Below are positions 10,438 through 43,550 of a stretch of DNA of 48,291 nucleotides, piece after piece. Origin of the DNA: a virus; IMG/VR virus record IMGVR_UViG_3300044638_003294, positions 1-48,291 of that record. One strand, given 5' to 3'. A model generated the notes under the pieces. The model saw nothing but the letters and a program-made list of their open reading frames with translations. It did no database searches and had not been told where the DNA came from. The translations under genes and the position numbers were made by a program. Numbering within the stretch: the stretch's first letter is position 1; each line of letters opens with the position of its first letter.

Positions 10438-10472
10438 CGGGGCCAGGGTGGAAACATCCTGGCCCCGTTTTC
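10438..10472 (+). terminator. Rho-independent terminator after head genes
   Basis: Perfect 10-bp stem CGGGGCCAGG / CCTGGCCCCG with loop GTGGAAACAT, followed by TTTTC. It lies 27 bases past the stop of the decoration gene and likely limits or tunes read-through from the highly expressed capsid genes. Confidence 0.85.
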
Positions 10473-10475
10473 TAG

Positions 10476-10631
10476 ATGGATCAACCACCAGCAATCCAGA
10501 ACCTGGACTTCCTGCGCCAGCTAATCGCTGAGATCCGCAATCTCCCGCAGGACGATGCTGAACGCCTTCGCATGTACTACGGCACGGGCGTGGGCACGGA
10601 CGGCATGACCACTCAGCAGGAGGATCGGTAA
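10476..10631 (+). CDS. Small hypothetical protein, 51 aa
   Basis: Frame from the ATG at 10476 begins MDQPPAIQNLDFLRQLIAEI and ends TTQQEDR; the stop shares an A with the next ATG (TAATG at 10629-10633), which supports it being translated and coupled to the 649-residue gene. Helical N-terminal half, no motif. It starts immediately after the terminator's T run, so any transcript must read through or start elsewhere; no ribosome-binding site is obvious upstream of its ATG. Confidence 0.6.
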   Translation: MDQPPAIQNLDFLRQLIAEIRNLPQDDAERLRMYYGTGVGTDGMTTQQEDR

Positions 10632-29519: not shown

Positions 29520-30982
29520 TGTTTACACAAAGCATGCCACAGCTGGCGCAGGCTCTTTCCGGCGCTCTGCCAGAAGCCGCGTTGCGGCAGCTGATGCAGG
29601 CTCTTGGCAACTGCCAGCAACCGCTCTCGCACCGCGGCGCTGTGAATCTTCAGCCGCCTACCTCAACCGGCCCTGGCGGGCTGGCAAGAAAAGGAGTGTG
29701 GAAGACATCCGACTACCCCGGACTGATTCCTACCGCTGGCCAAGATACGTTCGTTGATGTCGCTGGCGACACCTACACCAACACCACCAACACCAACAAC
29801 TACGACGGTCACCAGTTCAATTTCCCGATCAACCAAGACTTCAACTACAACAACTACTTCGGCGGCGATACGTTCAATGTCGCTGGCAACAGCACGTTCG
29901 ACAACACCTACATCAACAACACTACCACCCAGAACCTCAACACTACCAATCTGAATGTTGAATACATCAACAACACCTACGTTGGCAGCCAAGGTCGCGA
30001 TGGCCGCGATGGCTTCAACGGGCGCGACGGCATCACCACCGTCATTTTTCGCGGTGGCCCAGGCGGTGAGCAACAGAATTTCCCTACCGGCAACGCCCGC
30101 ATTCTGAAAAGCGTGACTGTTAACGGCAAGGTGGATGTGCCACACGCCACCAACGCCCGCGTGTACGACAAGGCGGTAACGGTCGGCACCACTGAGGTAG
30201 ACAGGGAGTTTACGGTTACGGGGCAGGTAGAAGTCCCGACCGTCGAAAGCGCGACCCTAAGTGCCATCGAAGCCAGTGGTACGATAACGATACCGACCAT
30301 CACTGGGGGAACTCTATCGGGCGCCACGGCGACCGGCACAATCTTCTACGACACGTACCCTAACGCAACGTGCGGCCCGCTGACGGCTTCCGTTGACATA
30401 CCTACCAGCGGTACGTTTTCAGCAACCCCAACCGGCATCGCGGCCACTGGTGCGCTTGGAACGCTGGCAGGAACGGTCACGCTAGACATTCCCACCGGCG
30501 GCTATTTGGATGCTTCTTGCAAACTTGTCCTGACAACGACAAGCGTGACCAAGAGCGTTGTCTTCACAGGCGCGCCGAGCGTGTCCATTACCAGCCAAGG
30601 GAAGGTGGACGGGAACGTGACTCTCGTCTCGCCGGGGTCGTCCAAGTCCGTGACCGTCAACACGCCGACGATCACGCTGACAAAGTCTTCTGCGTCTTCG
30701 TCCGTGTCGCTCAAGGTGAACGGCGGCACGTTCAGTCCAACGACCGGCAGCACCACATCTGCCGTCACGGTCAGTGCTGCGGGAGCGACCGTCACATTGA
30801 CGGCAGGCACTACCGATGTGCAGGTGTCCTTGGATGGTTACGTGGCTGTCACGGAGCCTACGGGGGAAGGGACTTTGAAGGACGACGAGGTGTTGCTGGA
30901 TGAAGAGTATGAGTCAAAGAGAGTGGACATCACAGTAGTGCAAAAGGCAGACCAGCTGGTTTACTTGAGGCCGCGCATCTGA
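29519..30982 (+). CDS. Asn/Thr-rich fibre or appendage protein, 487 aa, GTG start
   Basis: GTG at 29519 overlaps the TAG of the preceding gene. Begins MFTQSMPQLAQALSGALPEA (a helical anchor), then an Asn/Thr-rich region (TYTNTTNTNNYDGHQFNFPI; NNTTTQNLNTTNLNVEYINN), a short collagen-like stretch GRDGRDGFNGRDG, and a Thr/Val/Ser-rich shaft (VTVSAAGATVTLTAGTTDVQ) ending KADQLVYLRPRI. A fibrous virion appendage is likely; collagen-like tripeptides occur in phage fibres and help trimerise. No enzyme motif. Confidence 0.75.
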   Translation: MFTQSMPQLAQALSGALPEAALRQLMQALGNCQQPLSHRGAVNLQPPTSTGPGGLARKGVWKTSDYPGLIPTAGQDTFVDVAGDTYTNTTNTNNYDGHQFNFPINQDFNYNNYFGGDTFNVAGNSTFDNTYINNTTTQNLNTTNLNVEYINNTYVGSQGRDGRDGFNGRDGITTVIFRGGPGGEQQNFPTGNARILKSVTVNGKVDVPHATNARVYDKAVTVGTTEVDREFTVTGQVEVPTVESATLSAIEASGTITIPTITGGTLSGATATGTIFYDTYPNATCGPLTASVDIPTSGTFSATPTGIAATGALGTLAGTVTLDIPTGGYLDASCKLVLTTTSVTKSVVFTGAPSVSITSQGKVDGNVTLVSPGSSKSVTVNTPTITLTKSSASSSVSLKVNGGTFSPTTGSTTSAVTVSAAGATVTLTAGTTDVQVSLDGYVAVTEPTGEGTLKDDEVLLDEEYESKRVDITVVQKADQLVYLRPRI

Positions 30983-32172
30983 TGACCTGTACCTGTTGCG
31001 AGACGGGCCGGTGCTGCAATGGGTCCGTGTGTAGGGACACTTCACAATCTGAATGTGTGTATCGGTTCGGAACATTCACCACTGGTGGCGATTGCACTCA
31101 ATACGCATGCACATCCGCACCGCCGTACAACACACCATGCACTCTCTCAAATGCCTGCGTCTGCTCCTCTGTCGGCAAAGTGCTGAACGCGCCACAGACT
31201 ACCTGTAACTGCACCACTCTGACCGCAGCAGGAGTGCCGCACGGAGGGTGCCAAGCGTACTACTGCAACGCTTGCGTCTCAGGCTCCTGCGTTCTCACAT
31301 GCGTTGCGCCTCGTTCCTGTTGTGCCGGTACGTGCTGCCCGCTGTCGCAGCGATGCGATAACGCTAGCGGGAACTGCGTGGACAAGTGTACGACCGGCAC
31401 CTTTTGCGCCGGTACTGGGGCGGCGTACGACTGCTGTGCGGTAGGAGAGAAGTGCTGTGGGCCGTCTGGTTGTTTAGCCACCACAACCACCACGTACAGC
31501 CGCTCTGTCGTTATCGGAGACCCGGCAGGCTGGAATCAAGTAGTCATTACCATTCCTGACGGGGTGACAGTGACAATTACCGCTACTCAAAACACAGCGG
31601 CGCAAAGCCCGGATGGGGTTCCCGGCACCTCTGCAGATGCTTGCAATGTGATAGCGGTCAACAGGGCACGCCTCATCGGCAGGGTTGGAGACGTTGTTTT
31701 CGACATTGGCTCCAACTACACAGGCACACCAGGGGCCGGAGATCTTGCACTGCGACCCAACCTGACTAGCGGGAGTTGCACCAACAACCAAGTTGGCAGC
31801 TATGCCGTGCAGATTTCTTTTACGACTGACCCTTGCCCAGGCTTCACGCCAGCTGCCATCGGTGAGCCAATCGTCTATGCGTCCGGTGAGGAACCGCCAG
31901 CCAGCACCGGCCCCGGCACGGAGCTAAAAGCTCTGCTGCGCCTAGCTGGGATTGTTGCCTCCCCTACGTGCAGTTGTAACGCGCGGGCTGCACAGATGGA
32001 CGACTGGGGCGGGCGGGTGTGTTTGACACGCCTCCCAGAAATCTGTGGCTGGCTCAAAGAAGAGGCTGAAAAGCGGGGTTTGTGGTTTTTCCCACCCGCT
32101 GGATACGCCTTGATTCTGGCTGCGATTTCCCTGTCGGCACTGAAACAGACTCTCAGGGGCAATAACAAGTAG
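30982..32172 (+). CDS. Cys-rich protein with LecA-like and unusual C-terminal domain, 396 aa
   Basis: Residues 3-164 contain about 32 cysteines (openings TCTCCETGRCC and NGSVCRDTSQSEC; later CCAGTCCP and CCAVGEKCC), so this part should be disulfide- or metal-rich. Residues about 174-285 fit a LecA (PA-IL)-like sugar-binding beta sandwich (WNQVVITIPDGVTVTITATQ; SPDGVPGTSADACN; ARLIGRVGDVVFDIGSNYTG). Residues about 312-380 hold a third module with TELKALLRLAGI, CSCNARAAQMDDWG and ICGWLKEEAEKRGLWF, followed by a hydrophobic stretch (YALILAAISLSAL). From memory similar third modules occur in planctomycete and environmental-phage proteins. May be a surface adhesin; function unproven. Confidence 0.7.
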   Translation: MTCTCCETGRCCNGSVCRDTSQSECVYRFGTFTTGGDCTQYACTSAPPYNTPCTLSNACVCSSVGKVLNAPQTTCNCTTLTAAGVPHGGCQAYYCNACVSGSCVLTCVAPRSCCAGTCCPLSQRCDNASGNCVDKCTTGTFCAGTGAAYDCCAVGEKCCGPSGCLATTTTTYSRSVVIGDPAGWNQVVITIPDGVTVTITATQNTAAQSPDGVPGTSADACNVIAVNRARLIGRVGDVVFDIGSNYTGTPGAGDLALRPNLTSGSCTNNQVGSYAVQISFTTDPCPGFTPAAIGEPIVYASGEEPPASTGPGTELKALLRLAGIVASPTCSCNARAAQMDDWGGRVCLTRLPEICGWLKEEAEKRGLWFFPPAGYALILAAISLSALKQTLRGNNK

Positions 32173-39900: not shown

Positions 39901-40560
39901 GGCCTGACTCGGTACGTGACAAATATCGATCTGCCGTTTGAGTCAACGCTTAACATGTTCACCCCGGGCGTTGGGGCTACAACCACCGCTCGCGTGATGG
40001 ACTCCATTCAGAAGACCGGGATGAACTTCGCTGGCCAGCTGAACCCGCTGGCGAAGTACCTCATTGAGTCCACAACCAACCGGCAGCTGTATAGCGGTCG
40101 TCAGTTGTCGGACCTCTACTCCACGCTTGAGCAGGACATCGGGCCGATTGGGCGACCGCTGGAGAATGCGATCACCAACCTTGTGCCGTTCGGATCCCGC
40201 GCGCTAGGCACCATGCGCCAGCTGCGGGACGAGCGACTGGACCCAACGGATCGCTACGCCAAGGCAGCAATCAACTTGCTCGCTGGCTTCAAGCTCACGG
40301 ACGTTGACAGCGAGCGGACCAAGCAGCTTGCCGCCCGGGACATGCTGAACAAACTCCTGTCCACCACCCCCGGCGTCCGCACCTACGAAAACCTAACTGT
40401 CCCAGAGGATGTGGTGCGATCCATGCCCAGGGAGCAGCGGGACATGTACCTGCTCTACAAGATTATCCAGAACGAAGCCGCCAAGCGTGCCCGGGACAAG
40501 AAGAAGGCGCAGGCAGGCATGGACCCGATGCAGATGCTAGGGTTGCCCAGCCAGTTCTAG
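36967..40560 (+). CDS. Very large internal virion (ejection) protein candidate, 1197 aa
   Basis: Begins MARSPLFDLYDPYGLLNGQE and has no lytic transglycosylase or peptidase signature that I can find (no GLMQ, ExxxGL or HExxH-type site). A segment NWLNFFGGLATEIVTDPLTY and hydrophobic GALASPAFHVRNSYSGLINA fit a membrane-associated helical protein. The C-terminal part has FYSFQKGILPSIAENFLYQP and a long helical tail. In podovirus-like genomes the longest gene at the end of the structural arm is usually an internal protein ejected with DNA. The gene runs 24 bases into the convergent integrase gene. Confidence 0.75.
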   Translation: MARSPLFDLYDPYGLLNGQEGIPSDDPTLADLMPQEERSSMLRSLAEAGTSGLAMVGGVLDTPGAWVRGLLAGDPFSEERISGRDLNRKYGLAGRQDNWLNFFGGLATEIVTDPLTYLNPLAILGKGALGPAGRAVRDTGLLRHAATDAYRGFAPTAAQTAAAQEVLGGLGGQAREAGQGIRSYYRTQTPRRLIAEAADPADALQRFQQQARRYGADPADLDAPIAGLMDFRVPGTNLGFNIRGGQLGDSLAEGLDALGEASKRNPITGPVVSGAAALFHKPSGEVLDPDLQWASRIARADNQRLDEALLLDRTRMQRRALQANVPDMSPMGAIPADLRNFQSTRLQNALADFVESPGDLLGQGQFGPMQKTSGDPIADWVLENVPEFRDIRDNFTNMGDRARQRAEALGLAGPSWHSRDHGTNWFPRQLKWWEQDAAPIRPNASPYVEKPWSQGELVLGTEDNFGRSRKPYTDIEGGRRTFRALTGNGPLPGGGTFDSAGLQQNLLNANARDSRYLIDDAFTQLGLDTPYRGQADRIMATAEYQAASPAERMTMLRPAVRTMRENKGDLAEFLRSMDTQFAANNTGAFDTPAWQNAMTYELGQNRVRANTEQVINQLLNGVQNVSARNVVGGAVVPLEEAARRLNFDPDNFRRMWQARTGRDVANFSVPERLMDSLQTLASPSRASLPEKGLLGALDQFTAAFKGGALASPAFHVRNSYSGLINAATHGAGNPMDFLAGLRASNGDYSAIAARLENAPGFVGMSPQERIDTFLDMTGQNRIGSGNLVDDVSNLPEQSIKGMYTGANTGDGLLDRMLPANRRGFLNRASDFFSMRGVGLTRNPLNRQTNPLLVLNDAVGNSVEDALRTGTFLNQVRKGVDPGQAADLTRMSQVDYSPSAFTSFERNVMKRAVPFYSFQKGILPSIAENFLYQPGGLQGKLIRAVTRGSEPSEENFVPEHLRQSAAIPLPADFPLQPKDGLTRYVTNIDLPFESTLNMFTPGVGATTTARVMDSIQKTGMNFAGQLNPLAKYLIESTTNRQLYSGRQLSDLYSTLEQDIGPIGRPLENAITNLVPFGSRALGTMRQLRDERLDPTDRYAKAAINLLAGFKLTDVDSERTKQLAARDMLNKLLSTTPGVRTYENLTVPEDVVRSMPREQRDMYLLYKIIQNEAAKRARDKKKAQAGMDPMQMLGLPSQF

Positions 40561-41358
40561 GCTGGGGACCGCCCGCTTAAGATCCGACAGAATCACGGGA
40601 TCTAGGTAGTGGCGTTTCATGCCCGGGGTCAAATGACCTAAGTGTCCAGTGGCGTCCATTCCCGCTAATTGAGCGTAAGTGGCACTGCTTCTACGCAGGT
40701 ATTTGCCTGAGCCTGTCAGGCCCGCGCGCTTGACCAGTGAGCGCATGGCCACTATGATCCGGCTCCTTCCGACCAGTCCCCCGAAAATCTTCGGGCCGCG
40801 ACGGGGCAGGGAGCGAATGGATTCCAAGGCATTCCCGTCAAGGACGACGACATGTTGCTGGCGAGTTTTCTGCAGAACCGTAGCCAGACGATCCCCGCGA
40901 AGGGAGTCGTAGGTAATGGCCAGCAGATCCCCGAGCCGCAGCCCGCTGCTGTAGCCCACCAAAATCCATGCGGGCAGCAGGATTCGGTGCGGGCAGTACA
41001 GCGTACCCCCCGGCATCTCAGAGGCCACCGCAAGCAGGTGACGCATTTCGTCATGGGTCCAAGCGCGGACCATCGGCAAGGTGTGCTTGACACGGCGGAT
41101 CGGGCGTGTACAATCGTCCACCAACAGGCCGTCGCGCAGGGCGGCTCGTCGCAGGGTGGACAGCATCCGGCGATGGTTGTGAACCGTGGAGGCGGCGAGA
41201 TGACCGAGAGCATTCGTCAGGTACGCATCGATGTTGGCGACGGTCAAGTCGGCCACCCCCCAAGGGAGCCGCTTTGCCATCACAATGAGTTGCTCACGGT
41301 ATCCGGGGCTAGCCCCCGATTGGAGGGCGTAAGCCTCCGCGAACTGTCGCACAGTCAT
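40537..41358 (-). CDS. int: Tyrosine recombinase / integrase
   Basis: From the ATG at 41358 the 273-residue product has an N-terminal DNA-binding helical part (MTVRQFAEAYALQSGAS; AASTVHNHRRMLSTLRRAAL) and the catalytic domain: R141 in SSGLRLGDLL, box II as KYLRRSSAT (K219/R222, with Lys where most have His), GHLGH (H242) and Y251 in MKRHYLDP. This is a phage-type integrase. A longer frame begins with GTG at 41451 but would cover a good plus-strand promoter; its extra 31 residues look non-domain, so I prefer the ATG although it lacks a clear SD. It lies beside the likely attP (41455). Confidence 0.88.
   Translation of the reverse strand: MTVRQFAEAYALQSGASPGYREQLIVMAKRLPWGVADLTVANIDAYLTNALGHLAASTVHNHRRMLSTLRRAALRDGLLVDDCTRPIRRVKHTLPMVRAWTHDEMRHLLAVASEMPGGTLYCPHRILLPAWILVGYSSGLRLGDLLAITYDSLRGDRLATVLQKTRQQHVVVLDGNALESIRSLPRRGPKIFGGLVGRSRIIVAMRSLVKRAGLTGSGKYLRRSSATYAQLAGMDATGHLGHLTPGMKRHYLDPVILSDLKRAVPSLELAGQP
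40546..40566. terminator. Convergent hairpin between structural arm and integrase
   Basis: CCCAGCC-AGTTCTA-GGCTGGG, a perfect 7-bp stem across the stop codon of the 36967 gene and inside the end of int. No T tract follows in either direction, so termination would be partial or factor-aided. Confidence 0.35.
41087..41114 (+). promoter_or_regulatory. Near-consensus promoter inside int, antisense
   Basis: TTGACA, 16-base spacer, TACAAT on the plus strand within the integrase coding region (which reads the other way). It would produce antisense RNA over the 5' half of int and continue into the recombination genes. Chance occurrence is possible. Confidence 0.45.
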
Positions 41359-41413
41359 GTTGTTATCGGAAATTTTGTGGATCTGGGTGAGGGGGGTGAG
41401 ACTACCCCCTCCA

Positions 41414-41441
41414 TTGGAATCCACAAGCCCTCTGCTATACT
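41414..41441 (+). promoter_or_regulatory. Promoter upstream of tRNA-like attachment site
   Basis: TTGGAA (41414-41419), 16-base spacer, TATACT (41436-41441). The start point, about 7 bases further, falls just upstream of the tRNA-like 5' end at 41455. It can drive the recombination genes or, after integration, a tRNA. Confidence 0.5.
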
Positions 41442-41451
41442 GACGGACCAC

Positions 41452-41685
41452 ATGGCACCCCTAGCTCAATTGGATAGAGTCGGTCGAAGCGTCCCCCCTT
41501 CGGGGTGGATCTCCCGAATCATACGGGGTGCGGTCCTAGCCCTGCTGGTGATCGTCATTTTTCTTCACGGCGTGGGCACTCTGCTCACGTTCCTCGCACT
41601 TGGACAGTTGGGCCGAGCGGCGGTTTTGTTCCGCCGCGGTCTTCGGAGGGAGTCGCTTCGCCCCACGGATGGGGCTTTTCACTAG
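41452..41685 (+). CDS. Possible single-span membrane protein overlapping the tRNA-like site, 77 aa
   Basis: From the ATG at 41452 the frame reads MAPLAQLDRVGRSVPPSGW, then a strong hydrophobic segment (AVLALLVIVIFLHGVGTLL, residues about 26-50), then a basic tail LFRRGLRRESLRPTDG. The opening MAPLAQLD is the well-known false translation of a tRNA gene, so the first 10 residues come from the tRNA-like sequence. There is no SD, but the stop TAG sits inside the AGGAGG of the next gene, as in real operons. Positive N- and C-termini around one span would suit a small membrane protein, even a holin-type one. It may equally be an accident. Confidence 0.35.
   Translation: MAPLAQLDRVGRSVPPSGWISRIIRGAVLALLVIVIFLHGVGTLLTFLALGQLGRAAVLFRRGLRRESLRPTDGAFH
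41455..41531 (+). other. tRNA 5'-half-like segment, probable attP core
   Basis: GCACCCC, TA, GCTC, a 9-base D loop AATTGGATA and GAGT make the acceptor strand and complete D arm of an ordinary tRNA (about 26 bases). After GAGT, the anticodon and T stems do not form. Yet GGGGTGC, complementary to GCACCCC, appears 77 bases from the start, exactly tRNA length, with GAATC before it. So it is either an attP core matching a host tRNA gene's 5' end or a decayed tRNA. It lies just upstream of the integrase gene, as attP sites do. Confidence 0.55.
41660..41679 (+). terminator. Weak terminator-like hairpin before recombination genes
   Basis: GCCCC-ACGGAT-GGGGC followed by TTTTC. Short 5-bp stem, overlapping the end of the membrane-protein frame and 17 bases upstream of the exonuclease ATG. 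Confidence 0.4.
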
Positions 41686-41696
41686 GAGGTGTACGG

Positions 41697-42551
41697 ATGA
41701 CTACTTTGCCACGGAAGGTTGTGGGCATGAGCAATGCCGACTACCACTCTCAGAACGATTTTCTTGGCCGGTCCTACCTGCACTCGGTCGCCAAGTACGG
41801 CGGCGAGGCGCAGCGGTGGATGGATCACGGCTACTCCCTCTTTGGGGGGAACGCCGGAACCCGCACGGGCAGCAAGTTTGACACCATCGTCACGGCTGTC
41901 TGTGAGGGAAAGAAGTTGAGTGACGTTCTCGCCATCCCTCCCGCCGAGGTGCTGGCCAGCAACGGCCACCGCCGGGGGAAAGCCTACGACGAGTGGAAGT
42001 CGCAGGCCGAGGCCAAGGGGTTGATCGACTGCAACGCGGAAGAGGGATGGCAGCTGGAGGTGATGCTGACGCATCTCCTTGAGAACCCTGCCGCCAAGGC
42101 TCTGGTGGAGCAGACCACTGAGACTCAGGTGTCGGTGTTCTTTGAACTGAACGGCCACCGCTGCAAGGTGCGACCGGACGGCTGCACTCCAACGCTGTGG
42201 TGGGATCTGAAGACGACCTCGTCCACTTGGGACAAGGTCTACCGCAGTGCGATGGACTTCGGGTACGCGGAGCAGGAATGGCTGTACTGCCAGGGTGCCA
42301 AGGCTGTGGGCTTGCCGCACTTCCGCATGCCGTTCGTCTTCGTCCAGACGATGGCCCCGTACGGTGTCCACGTTTTCTATCTGCCAACGGAGATCGTTGA
42401 GGAGGCGGGCCTGCGTATGACCCGCGTGATGGAGGAGGTTCGCCTTCGCCGGGAGACTGGCGTGTATGAGTCCGCTGATGCGGGCGAGATCACGGAGCTT
42501 CAGTTCCCCGCCTGGGCGAAGCGTCAAGAGGAGGAGGTAATCACAGTATGA
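41697..42551 (+). CDS. RecE-like PD-(D/E)XK exonuclease, 284 aa
   Basis: Begins MTTLPRKVVGMSNADYHSQN; AGGAGGTGTACGG precedes the ATG. The text follows RecE/exonuclease VIII-type nucleases: an N-terminal SRSxLHxxA-like DFLGRSYLHSVAKYGG, GSKFDTIV (the G-H-region), then RPDG with D161, WWDLKTTSS with D170-L-K172, and GYAEQEWLY with Q193. It would digest one strand of dsDNA ends and hand a 3' overhang to the ERF annealing protein encoded next, giving a two-component recombination system. The earlier in-frame start at 41505 lies within the tRNA-like region and is rejected. Sure of family, moderately of RecE subtype. Confidence 0.82.
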   Translation: MTTLPRKVVGMSNADYHSQNDFLGRSYLHSVAKYGGEAQRWMDHGYSLFGGNAGTRTGSKFDTIVTAVCEGKKLSDVLAIPPAEVLASNGHRRGKAYDEWKSQAEAKGLIDCNAEEGWQLEVMLTHLLENPAAKALVEQTTETQVSVFFELNGHRCKVRPDGCTPTLWWDLKTTSSTWDKVYRSAMDFGYAEQEWLYCQGAKAVGLPHFRMPFVFVQTMAPYGVHVFYLPTEIVEEAGLRMTRVMEEVRLRRETGVYESADAGEITELQFPAWAKRQEEEVITV

Positions 42552-43207
42552 CCGATAGCCATGACATCCTGGGACCAAGCTCGTCGCCCGATACCAGCGC
42601 ACTCACAGAGGCACTGGCCAAGGCACAGGCTGAGTACAAGCACGTTGAGTTGGACGCTGCGAACCCGCACTTCAAAAGCAGGTTCTCGTCCTACGCCACT
42701 TGCTGCGATTCGTTGCGTGGCCCGTTGACCAAGCACGGCTTGGCCTTGCCGGACTTCCGGCCGGGGCTGGTTGCTGGCCAGTGGGTGCTGGTCGGAACCT
42801 TGCGTCACAAGACTGGGCAATACATCACCGGCATCTCGCCGCTGGTGAACCCCAAAGGTGACATGCAGGGGTTCGGTGCGGCGATGACCTACGCCAAGCG
42901 GACCCTGTTGATGGCACTCACCGGAGGATTCTCTGGCGAGGCCGATGACGACGGTGACAGTGTGAAGGTGGAGTCCGCTCCGCAGCGCACATCGCCTAAG
43001 CCGAATGCTTCCGCTCGCAACCTGCAGTGGGAGCAGGAGTGGAAGAAGACCATCGCAGACGCGGAAGACCGTGGCACTGCGGTCAACGTGATGAAGACAG
43101 TGGAGTTGCGTCTTCGGGAGAAGGCGATTGCACGGGATGTGTACGACCGCTGCAAGGCTGAGTTTGTTCGATGCTGGGAAACCAAGGAGGTAGTGACCAA
43201 TGGCTAG
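42548..43207 (+). CDS. ERF-family single-strand annealing protein, 219 aa
   Basis: Begins MTDSHDILGPSSSPDTSALT; ATGA overlap with the exonuclease. The ERF core is seen in LAKAQAEYKHVELDAANPHF, FSSYATCCDSLRGPLTKHGL and QGFGAAMTYAKRTLLMALTG (motif 107-118). After a linker rich in Glu, Ser and Pro, a helical C-terminal part (WEQEWKKTIADAEDRGTAVN) follows. ERF proteins anneal complementary ssDNA during phage recombination and circularisation. Size and neighbours agree. Confidence 0.85.
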   Translation: MTDSHDILGPSSSPDTSALTEALAKAQAEYKHVELDAANPHFKSRFSSYATCCDSLRGPLTKHGLALPDFRPGLVAGQWVLVGTLRHKTGQYITGISPLVNPKGDMQGFGAAMTYAKRTLLMALTGGFSGEADDDGDSVKVESAPQRTSPKPNASARNLQWEQEWKKTIADAEDRGTAVNVMKTVELRLREKAIARDVYDRCKAEFVRCWETKEVVTNG

Positions 43208-43550
43208 TTCTTTTTACAACAGGACGATTCTCATGGGCAACATCACTGCTGACCCCGACATTCGTCGCGTTGGCGAGAAGGATGTTGTGAAGTTCAGCGT
43301 GGCCGTGAACAACCCTTACCGCGAGGGCAAGGTCTTGTTCATGGATTGCGAATACTGGAAGGGTGGCGCTGTCGTCAACTACCTCAACAAGGGCACCTCT
43401 GTCCTTGTCGAAGGCGAGCTTGATCAGCAGGTCTGGGAGCGTGACGGCCAGAAGAGGAGCAAGGTTGTCCTCAACGTCAAAGGCATCCAGCTTGTTGGCG
43501 GGAAGAAGGACAGTGCCCGCGAAGAAGAGTTCGTTTCAGAGTTCCGCTAG
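43200..43550 (+). CDS. ssb: Single-stranded DNA-binding protein
   Basis: The 116-residue product has a complete OB fold: MGNITADPDIRRVGEKDVVK, FSVAVNNPYREGKVLFMDCE (the F/W-rich strands), YLNKGTSVLVEGELDQQVWE and KVVLNVKGIQLVG. Ends with EEEFVSEFR, lacking the long acidic tail of host SSB. Binds ssDNA in replication and recombination; coupled to the ERF gene by an 8-base overlap. Confidence 0.88.
   Translation: MASSFYNRTILMGNITADPDIRRVGEKDVVKFSVAVNNPYREGKVLFMDCEYWKGGAVVNYLNKGTSVLVEGELDQQVWERDGQKRSKVVLNVKGIQLVGGKKDSAREEEFVSEFR

Follow-up and report, generated by a model that had tools for sequence, protein, structure and literature searches.

Integrases usually insert at the 3' side of tRNA genes, so that the host promoter stays in place. 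What, then, is the 5' end of a tRNA, with a promoter ahead of it, doing beside the integrase gene of a virus? The window, i.e. the whole stretch of DNA analyzed here, is a virus record of 48,291 bases. A sequence-only reading had noticed the promoter and the tRNA 5' end next to int, and both are confirmed. The bases at 41455-41479 on the plus strand (GCACCCCTAGCTCAATTGGATAGAG, with T next at 41480) are identical to nucleotides (nt) 1-25 of tRNA-Arg(ACG), as matched to host copies. The retained end had been taken to comprise 26 bases; the first 25 hold, whereas base 26 is T in the phage and C in nearly all listed host copies, so the match is 25 bases long. Ahead of it, a motif scan finds a sigma-70-like promoter (41414-41441, plus strand) consisting of TTGGAA (41414-41419), a 16-nt spacer and TATACT (41436-41441), with a TG before the -10 hexamer. 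This is the sole promoter-like site in 41200-41800, where 0.3 are expected in shuffles, and its end lies 13 nt from tRNA nt 1. The window contains the 11-mer TAGCTCARTTG once, at the tRNA piece.

The tRNA piece adjoins int, which is divergently oriented (40537-41358, minus strand). By sequence match the product is a tyrosine recombinase: it matches the phrog_1 integrase (E 1.3e-17) and PF00589 (E 6e-5; 23.3 bits, below the cut-off of 27.1), a cut-off that the integrase of a relative (L148) passes with 31.4 bits. The open frame extends to 41451. Since M32 of this longer frame is invariant in 12/12 aligned integrases, int probably starts at the ATG at 41358-41356, which in the window's group places the core 96 nt upstream of the likely start. 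On the other side lie a small membrane-protein open reading frame (ORF), which runs through the tRNA piece, and the recombination genes: first an exonuclease VIII-like gene (41697-42551, plus strand), then genes for ERF (42548-43207) and SSB (43200-43550). Searches of a phage collection by DNA and by integrase found no relatives, and terminase relatives reach only 24-26% identity, in four records. A cysteine-rich ORF of 396 amino acids without a Pfam match lies among the structural genes (30982-32172).

Related viral loci were selected by integrase sequence, not by site. A scan with the window integrase gives 17 loci, one of which (L145) was dropped as it holds an int fragment only; in all 16 of the 16 with an upstream region, int is flanked by the same 23 bases, and the neighbors of this piece differ among them. 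An alignment of eight integrases retrieves 60 loci (29-100% identical to the query), and the L195 integrase 18, many of them on contigs common to the 60-locus list. A tRNA-like 5' end lies beside int in 78 of the 79 related loci, one exact pattern alternative (for L251) having been added post hoc, once its site was known. The exception (L288) is a 29% match with 120 nt upstream and no tRNA-like 5' end. The site pattern fixes nt 8-18 and leaves nt 1-7 and everything outside free, so within nt 8-18 the free evidence is that 78/79 loci meet the pattern. The 11-mer is found 77 times in the 79 loci vs 0.4 times expected by chance. The 51 distinct sites, including the window, fall into four acceptor-strand types: 23 GCACCCC, 14 GGGCAGC, 13 GGGCAAC, and one GCGCCCG. 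A host tRNA for the GGGCARC type would begin GGGCARCTAGCTCAGTTG. Mapped on the integrase tree, the four types require seven changes or more (minimum possible 3; shuffled mean 23.5), some of which are the single-base difference between GGGCAGC and GGGCAAC; GCACCCC alone accounts for three. One relative (L257, IMGVR_UViG_3300049595_001870) is a contig of 117,778 bases, about twice the 57-63 kb of many relatives, and is perhaps a tandem assembly.

The extent of the shared block was measured over 50 distinct sites, leaving out one with a complete tRNA (L287). Information content rises from 0.39 bits at position -1 to 2.0 at nt 1 and stays at 1.0-2.0 through nt 18, except at nt 6 (0.47), where the tRNA types differ. 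It then falls to 1.14 and 0.45 at nt 19-20, recovers at nt 21-23 (1.86, 1.76, and 1.35), and collapses at nt 24 (0.09). The conserved block thus has its left edge precisely at tRNA nt 1, and likeness to the tRNA fades beyond nt 18; no part of tRNA-Arg from the anticodon loop on is shared. The window alone suggested that the anticodon stem, too, was retained with a 2-nt deletion (GAG--TCGGTC), but this is absent from more distant relatives and was rejected. Within the block, CTA at nt 7-9 (49/50 sites) and TAG at nt 21-23 (42/50) form a CTA-N11-TAG dyad centered on nt 15, with the seven bases TCARTTG in the middle. Its 11-base arms match at a mean of 6.86 positions vs 3.10 (SD 1.51) in control segments, and at least seven matches occur in 27/50 sites vs 1.8% of controls. 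In the window's own group the arm match is mostly 6 of the 11 positions, the same value as in intact tRNA-Arg, so there the dyad adds nothing. Tyrosine integrases exchange strands at an overlap of 6-8 bp between inverted half-sites. The dyad around seven bases, taken with this usual geometry, suggests strand exchange within nt 12-18, in the D stem and loop. For the window, conservation and the dyad in relatives predict an attP core at 41455-41483 (no strand assigned), with half-sites at 41455-41465 and 41473-41483 around a putative 7-bp overlap at 41466-41472 (TCAATTG).

A host tRNA beginning with the same bases, the check that the sequence-only reading had proposed, exists as far as base 25. 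The 25-mer is present in at least 119 genome contigs; ARAGORN calls tRNA-Arg at the site in 113 of the 119 listed (111 ACG, 2 TCG) and finds no intact tRNA there in six. By phylum, the matches listed, which are a sample, comprise 111 Planctomycetota, three Verrucomicrobiota, one Acidobacteriota, one Pseudomonadota, and three unassigned. For the window's group, tRNA-Arg(ACG) is the most likely target and Planctomycetota are the most likely hosts, judging from these matches. GCGCCCG likewise begins gene-like sequence in four Planctomycetota genomes, and so both it and GCACCCC match gene 5' ends in that phylum.

The same host loci hold other elements. Unrelated tyrosine integrases lie divergently and directly 5' of tRNA-Arg(ACG) in 4/119 listed loci (L089, L090, L094, and L105), and 20 others have a tyrosine integrase on the 3' side of tRNA-Arg. 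Pfam supports the integrases of L090, L094, and L105, for which a partner 5' tRNA fragment was sought and none found; at L089 there is only a tRNA-Arg 5' fragment beside the integrase. In five Planctomycetota contigs (L033, L080, L085, L089, and L101), tRNA-Arg gives way to other DNA at about nt 40-50, leaving its 5' part alone; these are possible footprints of other 5'-side elements.

With a probability of about three in four, the phage is temperate and this segment its attP core, with an integrase that targets the 5' end of a host tRNA gene. The core would span the acceptor strand and the D arm, with a crossover at about nt 12-18. Integration would cut the host tRNA from its own promoter, rebuild the exact tRNA and place the phage promoter ahead of it. 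As phage and host agree from nt 1, recombination inside the core would restore the host tRNA letter for letter; upon integration in silico, 113/113 listed host loci with an intact gene keep their tRNA call, as the shared 25-mer requires. One prophage end would then run from int through the phage promoter and the phage copy of nt 1 up to the crossover, into the host remainder. The other would read host tRNA promoter, 5' fragment, small membrane ORF, terminator, and recombination genes, and the terminator would keep transcription from the host tRNA promoter out of the exonuclease, ERF, and SSB genes. Promoter activity, expression of the rebuilt tRNA, and host identity belong to what we infer, as do attB, the crossover point, and promoter replacement, given that no lysogen was found. 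Integration into a tRNA front with a replacement promoter, as proposed earlier, has the best support of the readings, from the 25-base host match and the recurrence of the piece beside related integrases; the supposed 3' remnant falls away.

A -10-like hexamer occupies the same position in relatives, and the promoter score reaches p<=0.05 in 17/23 GCACCCC sites, in only 8/27 GGGCARC sites, and in 0/1 GCGCCCG site. The same test passes only 15/110 host tRNA-Arg upstream regions (nine of the 119 loci having been dropped, six without an intact tRNA and three with <50 nt upstream), so a weak score is compatible with a promoter. For the GGGCARC group, the idea of promoter replacement gains little support from these scores. 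In a more distant group (L275-L286) no clear rightward promoter is seen upstream of int, and several members have a TTGACA-like hexamer directed towards int.

The ORF through the core (41452-41685, plus strand) would start at ATG 41452 or at an alternative start, TTG 41470, inside the core. In 9975 codon comparisons outside the core, differences at codon positions 1/2/3 number 3297/2874/4257, a modest third-position excess, and the region after the core is coding-like. The 20 loci compared were picked by the exact 23-mer, which makes them identical in the core by design. A hydrophobic segment (19-residue mean >=1.6) is encoded in 45/51 distinct sites. In 8/51 sites the ORF passes through the tRNA piece in a different frame; the TAG at nt 8-10 closes the remaining one. 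Pfam and PHROG searches with the ORF found no family. Ahead of the exonuclease, ERF, and SSB genes, a motif scan finds a terminator-like hairpin followed by TTTT (41660-41675, plus strand); the literal GCCCCACGG occurs downstream in 17/51 distinct sites.

These features allow a bolder and still tentative proposal, a two-way promoter swap at the tRNA D arm by which integration itself would switch a phage gene, in a lineage re-targeted to several tRNAs. In the free phage, the promoter would drive the small membrane-protein gene through the core. Once integrated, the promoter, in many relatives together with an upstream start codon, would move to the host tRNA, and the membrane gene would come under the host tRNA promoter or be silenced, with the terminator shielding the recombination genes. 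Another view, somewhat less probable still, keeps the piece as the attP core and lets the promoter serve the small membrane ORF only, through a nearly leaderless message, promoter replacement not being its purpose. That view fits the ATG that most sites in the close group of the window have at -3, and the weak upstream scores in most GGGCARC sites. However, three relatives (L231, L232, and L237) have lost this ATG and kept TATACT, and after integration the promoter would face the rebuilt tRNA anyway.

It is also conceivable, at rather long odds, that the core merely resembles a tRNA 5' end, being an integrase-binding site fixed in these phages, with attB elsewhere or with no integration at tRNA genes. 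Two results favor this, the first being that no lysogen was found in the genomes searched, so that the sequence-only reading's call for attL and attR in lysogens went unanswered across 392 Planctomycetota, 337 Verrucomicrobiota, and 241 genomes of the family of G001, a MAG named Pirellulaceae bacterium. Integrase searches, which scored few candidates per genome, matched 0/392 Planctomycetota genomes at E 1e-20 and 5/392 at 1e-12, none of them at tRNA-Arg. They matched 0/337 Verrucomicrobiota at 1e-12 and 22/241 genomes of the G001 family at 1e-15, where the 29 loci read contain no tRNA-Arg 15-mer. Verrucomicrobiota contigs that were probed proved too fragmented to be informative. Two weak int relatives lie near other tRNAs (L175 near tRNA-His, L222 near tRNA-Met). 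The best match of these searches, L195, comes from a MAG of the G001 family (G859), and its 55,139-base contig reads as a phage genome with an unrecombined attP. The second result is that no host tRNA was found for the GGGCARC sites (27/51) in the Planctomycetota, MAG G859, or the viral contigs searched: the GGGCARCTAGCTCAGTTGG pattern occurs in none of the 392 Planctomycetota, tRNA-like forms of it occur in no viral contig, and no further exact copy of the L195 site (GGGCAGC) turns up in G859 beyond the phage contig. Against mere resemblance, exact matches to host 5' ends exist for two of the four types, conservation sets in precisely at nt 1, which the need to rebuild a tRNA simply explains, and the promoter-like site lies at a tRNA-typical distance.

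Least probable is a complete phage tRNA gene that has decayed. In its favor, a 7-base complement lies at a tRNA-like distance of 77 bases as its would-be 3' remnant, and G404, a distant relative, carries an entire tRNA-Arg next to int. However, relatives do not conserve the complement, the sequence beyond the core is coding-like and shifts frame relative to the piece among sites, and decay would not spare just the first 18-23 bases across integrases 41-100% identical. That complement (GGGGTGC, 41525-41531, plus strand), which the sequence-only reading had offered as an acceptor remnant, reads GGGGGGC or other letters in relatives and lies inside the ORF, and is therefore not a tRNA remnant. 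A structured, tRNA-like RNA of 77 nt was likewise rejected (fold z -1.35, with 21/200 shuffles folding equally well; three Rfam matches, all under gathering scores). In G404 itself (L156, a contig of 18,181 bases), the tRNA-Arg(ACG) at 10450-10524 lies beside an integrase 32% identical, with an XRE-type repressor gene downstream. A prophage end and a carried tRNA are both conceivable; the downstream genes did not decide between them.

Integration at the front of a tRNA gene has precedents. In the Islander study, 3760/3919 islands lie on the 3' side of tRNA genes and 159/3919 have a 5' tDNA fragment, with crossovers classed to the anticodon loop, the T loop, and the T/acceptor junction (PMC4383910). 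The 5'-fragment islands likewise sit on the 5' side, and the putative attP region here carries the 5' end of the probable target, 25 tRNA-Arg bases beside int. However, the core ends before the anticodon and falls at none of those three sublocations, as tRNA-Arg identity drops after nt 18-25. A second parallel is offered by the pTN3-like integrases of Thermococcales, whose attB is the 5' half of a tRNA gene (PMC8371274; PMC5495485). According to a review, the full tRNA rebuilt there has lost its original promoter and is transcribed from that of the integrase, and cleavage might lie next to either the anticodon loop or the D loop (PMC8371274). Our reading resembles this in that attB is a tRNA 5' half and the tRNA is rebuilt but separated from its own promoter. 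However, attP and attB of the pTN3-like elements share 41 bp including the anticodon, and their attP lies inside the integrase gene (PMC8371274; PMC5495485), which is split on integration. Here, the core lies upstream of int, which would not be split, the shared bases reach no further than the D arm, and a separate promoter is directed at the tRNA piece. In tRNA-dependent lysogeny of actinobacteriophages, a core of ~10 bp breaks the tRNA, which a phage-encoded one replaces (PMC10865867). There too, a tRNA gene is the target of a tyrosine integrase and its function has to be safeguarded by the phage, but here the core would itself rebuild the tRNA, and prediction over the whole 48,291-base window, a record that may be incomplete, finds no tRNA gene.

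In bacteria, the use of tRNA 5' halves is seldom met, according to the review, which cites Williams (2002) (PMC8371274). A literature search, with most subscription papers outside its reach, returned neither a D-arm site with its own promoter in bacteria nor any paper on the phage family of the window. Measured against these sources, 5'-side tRNA integration is known but rare, and the D-arm position, the separate promoter, and the repeated switching of targets would be new here. If the attP reading is true, a bacterial phage lineage would consistently take the front of tRNA genes and carry a promoter that would pay for doing so. The tRNA type would have changed several times with the same geometry, making the rules of tRNA site choice directly testable. 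The model predicts where lysogens of these phages should lie, and it puts forward a D-arm position for the crossover in bacteria.
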